Source: Acidobacteriaceae bacterium
Lineage (GTDB): Bacteria; Acidobacteriota; Terriglobia; Terriglobales; Acidobacteriaceae
NCBI GenBank assembly: GCA_030039035.1
Contig: JASHQQ010000208.1
Span: 1-37,123, forward strand
DNA length: 37,123 bases
Reading direction: 5' to 3'
This document shows positions 15,358-18,142 of this stretch, in pieces. The notes under the pieces were generated by a model, which did not search any database, was not told the DNA's origin, and saw only the letters and a program-made list of their open reading frames with translations. Made by a program: the position numbers and the translations under genes. Every line of letters begins with the position of its first letter. Within the stretch, counting starts at the first letter, position 1.

Positions 15358-16194
15358 TTGTTGGTTCTCACTGACAGTCTGCGCGTCGATGAGCTCTCGG
15401 CCGAGGAGCGCGCGATCTACGCCACGCTGAAGCCGGAGCGGATTCCCGAGCACGTGGCCATCATCATGGACGGCAACGGCCGCTGGGCCGGCCGCCGCTC
15501 GCTCAAGCGCTTCTTCGGACACCAGCAGGGAGCCAGAAGCGTGCAACTGGTCACCGAGACCGCCTCGCGCATCGGCCTGCCCTGGCTCACCCTGTACGCA
15601 TTCTCGCTGGAAAACAATCTTCGCCGACCGCGCGCGGAGGTCAACTTCCTCATGCGCCTCCTCAGGAGCTATCTGGAGAGCAACCTGCAGCGCATGATGG
15701 ACAACAACGTGCGCATCCGCTACATCGGGCGCACGCACGAGCTACCACCGGAAGTCCAGGACAAGATGCGCTGGGCCGCCGACGCTACCGCGCGCAACAC
15801 CGGCACCACGCTGACGCTGGCCCTGAACTACGGCAGCCGCTCGGAGATGGTCGACGCCTTTCGCGCGTTGCAGGCCGAAATCAAGGCGGGGCAGATCAGC
15901 GCCGATCGCATCTGCGAGGAGGATATCCATCGCCATCTCTATACCGCGCACATGCCCGATCCCGATCTGCTCATCCGCACTTCGGGCGAGATGCGCGTCT
16001 CGAACTACCTCTTGTGGCAGATCGCGTATTCCGAGATCTACATCACCGACCGGCTCTGGCCGGACTTCCGCGGCATTCATCTGCTCGAGGCGATCGCCGA
16101 CTTCCAGCGCCGCGAGCGCCGCTACGGCGGCCTGAGCGAGAGCGTGGGCGAAGTGGAAGAAGATCCCGATCAGATTCGGATCGCGGCCGGATGA
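15358..16194 (+). CDS. uppS: Isoprenyl transferase (undecaprenyl diphosphate synthase)
   Basis: 278 residues. This cis-prenyltransferase condenses isopentenyl diphosphate units to make undecaprenyl diphosphate, the lipid carrier for peptidoglycan and other envelope polymers. Signatures are the catalytic D38 in IIMDGNGRWAGRR, then FSLENNLRRPRAEV, and the C-terminal DLLIRTSGEMRVSNYLLWQ followed by YITDRLWPDF. Length is slightly above the usual 240-260 because of an acidic C-terminal tail (EVEEDPDQIRIAAG). The start is TTG at 15358 after AGGGG; a second TTG follows directly. It would normally lead into cdsA, but two oppositely oriented genes intervene. Confidence 0.96.
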   Translation: MLVLTDSLRVDELSAEERAIYATLKPERIPEHVAIIMDGNGRWAGRRSLKRFFGHQQGARSVQLVTETASRIGLPWLTLYAFSLENNLRRPRAEVNFLMRLLRSYLESNLQRMMDNNVRIRYIGRTHELPPEVQDKMRWAADATARNTGTTLTLALNYGSRSEMVDAFRALQAEIKAGQISADRICEEDIHRHLYTAHMPDPDLLIRTSGEMRVSNYLLWQIAYSEIYITDRLWPDFRGIHLLEAIADFQRRERRYGGLSESVGEVEEDPDQIRIAAG

Positions 16195-16213: not shown

Positions 16214-16639
16214 TCAGAGAATCGACGAATTGAAATCCGCGATGAACTGGATGCCTGGAACATCCAGCTTCGCGAGTTGCTTGTCGCCGGTGAGAAAGAG
16301 ATCGATCCCGGCCGATGCGGCGCACGCGAGATGGATGGAATCGGCAATCTTGAGCTTCAGCCGTCCGCGCAGAAGGCTGAATGGCTGCACCGCCCCCGCG
16401 TCGAATGGTAGAAATCGAAAGCCGATTTCATTGAGCGTCTCGCGCACCGCCGTCGCCTTGATTGGTTGGTCGAATCGTTCCACCCCAGCCATGACCTCGC
16501 CCACAGCCAGGTAGCTCGTATACAGGGCGTCGCTCCGCGTGCGAGAGCGCGCCAAAAGAGCATCTGCTCGTGGCCGGAAGGCAGGATTGCCTTCGAGCAG
16601 GTATATCAGGAGCATGGTGTCCCAATAGACCCGGCTCAT
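16214..16639 (-). CDS. PIN-domain protein, VapC-type putative RNase toxin
   Basis: 141 residues, standard VapC size. PIN domains are Mg-dependent ribonucleases. The four conserved acidic residues are visible: D7 (VYWDTMLLIYLLEG), E48 (SYLAVGEVMAG), D100 (LKIADSIHLACA) and D119 (LTGDKQLAKL). The ATG overlaps the stop codon of the upstream gene as ATGA (16636-16639), the tight coupling typical of toxin-antitoxin pairs. It converges on uppS, with 19 bases between the two stop codons. The order (partner first, toxin second) fits a type II module; the partner is not a recognisable VapB. Confidence 0.9.
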   Translation of the reverse strand: MSRVYWDTMLLIYLLEGNPAFRPRADALLARSRTRSDALYTSYLAVGEVMAGVERFDQPIKATAVRETLNEIGFRFLPFDAGAVQPFSLLRGRLKLKIADSIHLACAASAGIDLFLTGDKQLAKLDVPGIQFIADFNSSIL

Positions 16640-17133
16640 TTCTCATCGTCCTCATTTTCCGACCGTACCCATCGCAGAAACGCCTCTCCGCCGCCAAACG
16701 CGGCAAACTCGTCCTTCATCAGACCAAAGATCTTTCCAGTCATCCGGTGCGCCCATTCCTCGGGGGTTTCTCCGGGGGGAGGAACGATGGATTGGGTTCC
16801 GGGAGTGCGCCCGCCAGTCGACCCGCTGGTTCCGGCGACCCGATAATGAACCACGACCGTCGAACTTGTCCCGGACGGCGGCCCATCCACGCCTTCAATC
16901 TCCAGGTCATTTGCCCGCAGGAACTTTTCAGCCTGGATTGCAGAACAAATCTGGTGCCAGTTCTTGTCGGGAAATCCCATTGGCCGCAAATCGTCCATCA
17001 AGTCCCGAGCGGCCACTGAGACCCGGGTTTTCCCTGCTCGAATCGCAGGCTCGACATATTTATTCCGTGCGACTGAGCGTACCTGATCGCTCAATCCAAA
17101 ATTGATTCTGCTTCCCTTTCCTGGCGCTCCCAT
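16636..17133 (-). CDS. Uncharacterised partner of the PIN protein (candidate antitoxin)
   Basis: 165 residues from the ATG at 17133, with GAGGAG about 8 bases upstream; a GTG at 17142 is in frame but lies over that ribosome site. The N-terminus is basic (PGKGSRINFGLSDQVRSVAR). A middle region, VSVAARDLMDDLRP and NWHQICSAIQAEKFL followed by a strand-rich segment ending STVVVHYRV, looks like a small winged or helical nucleic-acid-binding domain. I recall a similar short conserved domain in unannotated proteins but cannot name it. The C-terminal 60 residues are Gly/Pro-rich, then helical (EEWAHRMTGKIFGLMKDEFAAF) and acidic. No AbrB, RHH, Phd or HTH antitoxin signature is seen. Role as antitoxin is inferred from the overlap alone. 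Confidence 0.7.
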   Translation of the reverse strand: MGAPGKGSRINFGLSDQVRSVARNKYVEPAIRAGKTRVSVAARDLMDDLRPMGFPDKNWHQICSAIQAEKFLRANDLEIEGVDGPPSGTSSTVVVHYRVAGTSGSTGGRTPGTQSIVPPPGETPEEWAHRMTGKIFGLMKDEFAAFGGGEAFLRWVRSENEDDEK

Positions 17134-17190
17134 TCCTTGCACTCCTCTGCGGTGCTGATCTCAGCGTACCATAAATAGATATTGTATAAA

Positions 17191-17209
17191 TGAACACTTT
17201 ATCTGTTCA
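17191..17209. promoter_or_regulatory. Inverted repeat in the divergent PIN-module/cdsA gap
   Basis: TGAACA-N7-TGTTCA is a perfect 6-7-6 inverted repeat in an AT-rich patch (17161-17210) between the candidate antitoxin start and cdsA. It could be an operator for the module, as antitoxins commonly bind their own promoter, but this is inference. Confidence 0.4.
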
Positions 17210-17290: not shown

Positions 17291-18142
17291 ATGAAACGCG
17301 TCCTCACCGCCCTCGTTCTGATTCCGCTGGTGTTGTTCCTCGTCTTTCTGGGGCCCGGGTGGGATGGCGTCTTCACGCTCTTTACCGCAGGCATTGCCAT
17401 GCTGGCAGCCTGGGAGTATCTGGGCCTGACGACGCACATCGGAGCCAATCCGCCGCGGCTGGCGGTCATTCTTGCCATCCTGCTGCTCTTCGGATCGCGC
17501 ATCTTCGCCGACAGCTTCGACGTGCTGCGTCAGACCGAGGTGGTTTTCGGCTTCCTCGCGCTCGCATTGCTGGTCTTCTGCACCTGTCGATCACCCGTGG
17601 AACGGATGTTGGCCGACGCCTCGGCGTCGATCTTCTGCCTTTTCTACCTCGGATTGACACTTCTCACGCTTCCGTCCCTGAAGCAGGATCCCGAAGGCAG
17701 CGGCGCATCGCTGCTAACGTTTTTGTTTTGTGTCGTCTGGGCAGGGGACATCGCCGCGCTCTACGTGGGCCGAGCCTGGGGACGTCGAAAGCTGGCGCCA
17801 ACCCTGAGCCCCAACAAGACGTGGGAAGGAGCGATTGCCTCGGTTGCCGGCAGCCTGCTGATCACCGCTGGCCTGCTGGCGCTGGCGGAGCAGTTGCCCA
17901 GGCTGAATGTCACCCGGCTCACGTTTTCCGGCGAGAACTGGTACTGGTACATGATGGCGGTGATTCTGAACGTTGCCGCACAGGTGGGCGATCTGGCCGA
18001 GTCGGCGCTGAAACGCTCGGCCGGTGTCAAGGATTCCGGATCGCTGCTGCCCGGCCATGGAGGCGTTCTCGATCGCGTCGACGCACTGCTGCTGGCCGCT
18101 CCGGTGCTGTGGTACGCTCAGATCGTTCGCCAGCGATTCTAG
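17291..18142 (+). CDS. cdsA: Phosphatidate cytidylyltransferase
   Basis: 283 residues from the ATG at 17291. A GTG at 17267 is in frame but has no ribosome site. CdsA makes CDP-diacylglycerol from phosphatidate and CTP in the inner membrane, feeding phospholipid synthesis. Several hydrophobic helices are visible from MKRVLTALVLIPLVLFLVF onward. The family signature is complete near the C-terminus: LKRSAGVKDSGSLLPGHGG followed by VLDRVD. GRRKLAPTLSPNKTWEGA is the other conserved block. It belongs to the uppS-cdsA-dxr-rseP cluster common in bacteria. The gap to dxr is 175 bases and contains inverted repeats. Confidence 0.95.
   Translation: MKRVLTALVLIPLVLFLVFLGPGWDGVFTLFTAGIAMLAAWEYLGLTTHIGANPPRLAVILAILLLFGSRIFADSFDVLRQTEVVFGFLALALLVFCTCRSPVERMLADASASIFCLFYLGLTLLTLPSLKQDPEGSGASLLTFLFCVVWAGDIAALYVGRAWGRRKLAPTLSPNKTWEGAIASVAGSLLITAGLLALAEQLPRLNVTRLTFSGENWYWYMMAVILNVAAQVGDLAESALKRSAGVKDSGSLLPGHGGVLDRVDALLLAAPVLWYAQIVRQRF

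Follow-up and report, generated by a model that had tools for sequence, protein, structure and literature searches.

Gene organisation of the locus

The window, a 37,123-nucleotide stretch of contig JASHQQ010000208.1 from a soil acidobacterium (Acidobacteriaceae bacterium, assembly GCA_030039035.1), carries on its minus strand a two-gene unit in which the gene for a predicted antitoxin, here called the partner, comes first and the gene for a VapC-like PIN-domain protein comes second (Table 1). The partner frame opens with an ATG at 17133 and closes with a TGA ending at 16636, and an alternative GTG start at 17142 would lengthen the protein by three residues. The PIN frame runs from an ATG at 16639 to a stop codon at 16214-16216. 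The coordinates and the ATGA overlap given in the initial annotation are right, and the overlap may couple translation of the toxin to that of the antitoxin. Purifying selection acts on both genes, as indicated by the pN/pS values of 0.19 (partner) and 0.15 (PIN) obtained against the nearest relative. Open reading frames antisense to the pair were dismissed because conservation and selection follow the minus-strand frames.

Table 1. Features of the partner-PIN locus and its surroundings (window coordinates).
Feature	Position	Strand	Remarks
Predicted antitoxin (partner) gene, stop included	16636..17133	-	165 aa; same architecture at 36 distinct loci including the window's
N-terminal winged-helix-like domain, residues ~13-101	16831..17097	-	AlphaFold2 prediction; common to McrB proteins
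C-terminal VapB-like toxin-binding tail (predicted), residues 121-165	16639..16773	-	G137, G147, G148, E150 and R157 invariant
ATGA stop/start overlap	16636..16639	-	4 bp in 40/41 rows, 36/37 distinct loci
PIN-domain (VapC-like) predicted toxin gene	16214..16639	-	141 aa; PF01850, 59 bits; four invariant acids
Candidate operator, perfect inverted repeat TGAACA-N7-TGTTCA	17191..17209	.	starts 76 nt before the partner ATG
Flanking gene, presumed uppS	15358..16194	+	context
Flanking gene, presumed cdsA	17291..18142	+	context

The partner carries a domain shared with McrB

Sequence searches with the partner against Pfam, NCBIfam, PADLOC, PHROGs and the PDB return nothing significant, and a Pfam scan of all 11 members of the first partner alignment also gives no match. 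No named antitoxin DNA-binding family, whether RHH, AbrB or Phd, matches the partner in Pfam or NCBIfam. These results agree with the initial annotation, which had described a protein of about twice the usual VapB length, lacking the common antitoxin DNA-binding folds and possibly representing a new class of antitoxin or some other PIN-linked system. The AlphaFold2 model of the partner consists of a confident N-terminal domain, a disordered linker and low-confidence C-terminal helices. Modelled alone, the N-terminal domain reaches a mean pLDDT of 88, and its order of elements, helix-strand-helix-helix-helix-strand-strand (H-E-H-H-H-E-E), fits a winged helix. Foldseek gives no significant match for either the whole model (best E 0.096) or the N-terminal domain alone (best E 0.41). 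VIA-align rows for the domain are mostly winged-helix proteins (Stn1, CtsR, cullin WHB, MCM2, RepE, DpnI and CodY), mixed with Alba, Smr and S8, and their Z scores, up to 6.4, stand at background level. On this weak structural evidence, residues ~13-101 may be described as a winged-helix-like domain, an assignment that rests mainly on the order of secondary structure because the structural matches do not rise above background. The small nucleic-acid-binding type of N-terminal domain suggested at the outset is supported in kind, with the fold amended to winged-helix-like and the domain recognised as one common to McrB proteins.

The link to McrB comes from plasmid searches, which find the N-terminal domain in proteins annotated as AAA family ATPases. 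These are 36-38% identical to the window protein over its residues 15-100 and 32-39% identical to the standalone relative L021. In the seven ATPases that were read, the domain is found immediately or a short way ahead of the Walker A motif (profile E 1e-15 to 1e-18). The next gene is annotated as McrC family, McrBC component or restriction endonuclease in five of the seven, and one of the ATPases (L113) is itself annotated as 5-methylcytosine-specific restriction enzyme B. In proteobacterial McrBC operons, then, the domain sits just before the GTPase domain of McrB, and in L020 and L021 it stands alone.

The McrB-associated domain has no Pfam name in the relatives scanned (L025-L027 and L110-L113), and it is common on enterobacterial plasmids and present on rhizobial ones. 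Two further proteins end in it: one of 258 aa that matches HEPN_Swt1 below threshold (L018:979-1755), and one of 367 aa (L127:655-1758) whose neighbours look nuclease-related, possibly marking a defence locus.

A VapB-like tail in the partner

Among 40 aligned partners, R154 is nearly invariant, alongside the five invariant residues of the tail listed in Table 1, giving a conserved motif G..GG.E...R..R, or in fuller form L.G...GG.EA(F/Y)LR..R. An hhalign comparison of partner tails with VapB-type tails aligns 26 columns with a probability of 64.5% and an E-value of 6.3e-5, a score reached by none of 300 column-permuted controls; a PDB search with the tail profile finds no VapB. At the level of sequence, the partner tail accordingly appears to be a relative of the tail with which ordinary VapB antitoxins bind their toxins, and the AlphaFold2 model of this region is of low confidence (pLDDT 61-68). 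In solved VapBC and FitAB structures, Arg64 of the VapB tail or its FitAB equivalent occupies the PIN active site (PMC3384007), and by analogy R157 may do the same here. The initial annotation had proposed that an acidic C-terminal helix blocks the PIN site. The C-terminal part probably does inhibit the PIN protein; its acidic end, though, is not the conserved element, and the likely inhibitory element is instead the conserved VapB-related tail.

Across the 32 loci fetched through the tail, the tail occurs only with a PIN gene or as a remnant. One of them (L058) has a tail-only open reading frame before its PIN gene. At L083 the partner is 69 residues long and its tail is intermediate (LRGICKDIYAELGGSEAVLQEIRESWEH). 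Two tail-only remnants without N-terminal domain or PIN gene lie at the uppS-cdsA site, one of them still an open frame of 61 aa (L055:4067-4252; the other is L057:3803-4084).

The PIN protein and its relatives

All four PIN acidic residues had been reported as present, and they are indeed invariant (D7, E48, D100 and D119 in 41 of 41 aligned PIN rows) in a protein that Pfam places in PF01850. Across the comparisons made, pN/pS of the PIN gene ranges from 0.13 to 0.33, which indicates strong purifying selection. The genome from which the window derives has 28 PIN-domain matches, and those inspected show several different antitoxin types. One PIN gene, on contig C396, belongs to a second copy of the pair, being preceded by a partner that is 30% identical.

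Among the closest PIN relatives (115-150 bits) the partner, likewise unnamed and ~165 residues long, is a different one; RGLGRELWADEDADSYVRRLREGWE is an example of its tail. PINs at greater distance go with RHH (PF22513) or AbrB/MazE (PF04014) antitoxins, whose tails are similar. A tree of 74 PIN proteins, built on few columns and with many weak forks, groups the loci by antitoxin type, and the types require 8 changes on it compared with 33 when the labels are shuffled. The two clades with a McrB-type partner are not united in this tree, so that one or two acquisitions of the domain are both possible.

The second unnamed partner family (VADEVWIATALLHREHP..., with a VapB-type tail at its end) accompanies a sister group of PIN toxins. 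It is found at L001 and L002 (in the window's own genome, on contigs C374 and C388), L071-L082 and L090-L093, and the member tested has no match in Pfam or on plasmids.

Conservation of the pair

A search with the partner protein finds matches in 14 of 396 genomes of the phylum. Across 84,980 species genomes, a scan based on the partner alignment yields 32 loci, all titled Acidobacteriota or their subgroups; because it depends on an exact match to the tail pattern, forms that have diverged further may have escaped it. At 29 of the 32 loci, a full partner has a PIN gene directly after it. The other three are the tail-only partner with its PIN (L058) and the two remnants without PIN (L055 and L057). 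Pooling both searches gives 41 PIN-bearing rows, and with four loci present twice these reduce to 37 distinct loci, 36 of which have a full partner, all in Acidobacteriota. The association also holds from the side of the toxin: within the 396 Acidobacteriota genomes, each of the 13 PIN matches above 180 bits is preceded by the partner, in a divergent form at two of them (L069 and L070). Seventeen N-domain matches occur in the same genomes, 13 beside such a PIN and four without one. Two weak partner matches (L022 and L023) were discarded; they fail the profile search and overlie frames of other large genes. Searches of phages and viral contigs found no relatives.

Conservation of the gene pair, a check that the initial annotation had called for, thus exceeds what chance would give, and a chance neighbourhood of partner and PIN gene is rejected on the 29 full pairs among the 32 tail-fetched loci and on the conserved overlap. 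Membership of the partner in a housekeeping family is likewise rejected. The partner is neither such a protein nor rarely found beside a PIN gene, the two outcomes named beforehand as counting against the proposal.

Upstream region and chromosomal site

A perfect inverted repeat upstream of the partner gene is a candidate operator (Table 1). Upstream of 18 window-type loci, the window included, the half-site TAGACA/TGTCTA is found 16 times against 1.4 expected, with a maximum of 5 in 200 shuffles; these upstream regions are mutually related and not independent, so the enrichment is support rather than proof. Most relatives have TAGACA as their half-site, unlike the window, whose repeat is built from TGAACA. 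The N-terminal winged-helix-like domain may bind such inverted half-sites in its own promoter, by which the complex would control the operon.

The genes on either side of the pair are presumed to be uppS and cdsA. Fifteen distinct pairs, the window's among them, adjoin uppS, with cdsA nearly always on the other side. Others lie near coaD or a gene of zinc-protease-like type. In many members of the family the gap between uppS and cdsA is only 10-423 bp and the pair is absent, which marks the pair as an accessory module, one that has long resided at a few sites.

Interpretation

With a probability of roughly 0.8, we interpret the pair as a VapBC-like toxin-antitoxin module of type II, located on the chromosome, in which the DNA-binding domain of the antitoxin has been swapped for a McrB-associated one. 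The PIN protein would be a toxin that, in line with other VapC proteins, probably acts as an RNase, and the partner would be its antitoxin. The sequences themselves show the pair and its conservation, the active-site residues, the arrangement of modules, the relationship between the tails and the enrichment of half-sites. We infer that the PIN protein would be toxic by acting on a target RNA, that the partner would neutralise it and rescue the cell, and that operator binding would repress the operon. The tail would wrap around the PIN domain, with the invariant Arg157, together with Arg154, probably put into the four-acid site as in VapB and FitA. Such a module may have arisen when a VapC lineage kept its tail and took the DNA-binding domain of a family found in McrB proteins.

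The presence of the same domain before the GTPase in McrB of McrBC operons raises another reading. Here the pair would be a nuclease defence system with the partner as its targeting or sensing subunit: nucleic acid that is foreign or modified would be recognised by the McrB-type domain, and the PIN nuclease would thereby be directed or released. The HEPN_Swt1-like fusion and the occurrence beside nuclease-like genes (L018 and L127) point the same way, as does VapKSC, which ties a VapC antitoxin to a DNA-damage signal (PMC13373217). The pairs, however, are isolated among housekeeping genes, in many cases uppS and cdsA, and an unsystematic look at their flanks showed no defence genes beside them. 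They have no phage or viral-contig copies in the searches made, their tail is of the VapB type and half-sites resembling a self-operator are present, all of which makes a defence subunit improbable. A related suggestion would keep the toxin-antitoxin arrangement and let the McrB-type domain still sense modified or invading DNA, the antitoxin being a sensor that frees the PIN toxin on infection. We consider this, too, a long shot; if true, the pair would be an abortive-infection module assembled from restriction-system and VapBC parts.

The fixed position by uppS in 15 distinct pairs, and the remnants there (L055 and L057) that keep only tail fragments and no PIN, would suit a domesticated or decaying pair in which the PIN protein is no longer a toxin and the partner has become a local regulator, perhaps of uppS-cdsA expression. 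Four invariant acids and the low pN/pS of the PIN gene speak against such decay, as does the accessory nature implied by the many gaps without the pair, and we give this reading slightly less credence than the defence subunit. Finally, the four of 17 Acidobacteriota matches in which the N-terminal domain occurs without PIN might suggest that the two genes are unrelated, a winged-helix regulator lying before a PIN gene by chance. All 37 distinct loci with both parts nevertheless have them paired, 36 with the 4-bp overlap and at several chromosomal sites, and the confinement of the tail to PIN loci and remnants adds to this; because the pair is conserved, this explanation is close to refuted.

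Read as a module of the VapBC kind, the pair extends the antitoxins of PIN toxins by a family not described before and places one domain in both antitoxins and McrBC-type restriction proteins. It also suggests that the antitoxins of closely related PINs retain a common type of inhibitory tail and have their N-terminal domain exchanged, this being McrB-type, of the second unnamed type or missing altogether. A short antitoxin may in addition serve as an easy handle for studying the McrB-associated domain.

Comparison with known systems

A 2009 survey lists RHH, AbrB, PHD, COG2442, COG2886, COG2880, COG1753 and MerR among the partners of PIN proteins and does not mention McrB (PMC2701414), and the open-access literature searched yielded no description of a McrB-type domain in an antitoxin. 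The window partner has its N-terminal domain in common with McrB of McrBC type IV restriction, in those variants that carry this domain before the GTPase. Neither the McrB GTPase nor McrC is present at the window locus, where both neighbours are the other-strand uppS and cdsA, and the nuclease is a PIN protein, a fold different from the PD-(D/E)xK nuclease of McrC.

VapKSC resembles the proposed module in that its VapC is held in check by an antitoxin whose folded domain is unusual and whose C-terminus is needed for inhibition (PMC13373217). VapS is a kinase-regulated STAS protein that acts without arginine displacement (PMC13373217), unlike the mode suggested for the window pair. VapKSC has a GHKL kinase upstream of its STAS antitoxin; the window partner has no Pfam STAS match, no kinase gene adjoins the pair and the gene that precedes it is cdsA, in the opposite orientation. 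The PIN-COG2442 (DUF433) systems, such as VapBC10 of Synechocystis, join a PIN toxin to an antitoxin that has been described as a winged-helix protein (PMC3834315, PMC2701414). That PIN-COG2442 pair is functional in E. coli, which shows that a winged-helix antitoxin can serve a PIN toxin (PMC3834315), and COG2442/VapB10 is thus a precedent for combining the two. COG2442 domains, however, are 70-80 aa long, whereas the window partner is made of a McrB-shared domain and a separate tail, and none of the 11 members scanned has a Pfam match to DUF433.

The canonical VapBC and FitAB systems differ from the window pair in that the window antitoxin is about twice as long, its N-terminal domain is McrB-associated and matches no RHH or AbrB family, and its tail has a GG.E motif with one extra residue. 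In common with them, it has a four-acid PIN toxin, an antitoxin gene that comes first and a VapB-related C-terminal tail with conserved glycine and arginine. Of the features that define VapBC systems, autoregulation through an operator in the promoter would be in keeping with the repeated half-sites enriched upstream, in related regions, and an N-terminal DNA-binding domain may be present, given a winged-helix-like element order with structural matches at background level. A C-terminal tail of the toxin-binding type, with R157 invariant, is recognisable at the level of sequence, and the PIN protein with intact acids and the overlapping two-gene operon with the antitoxin first are both present.
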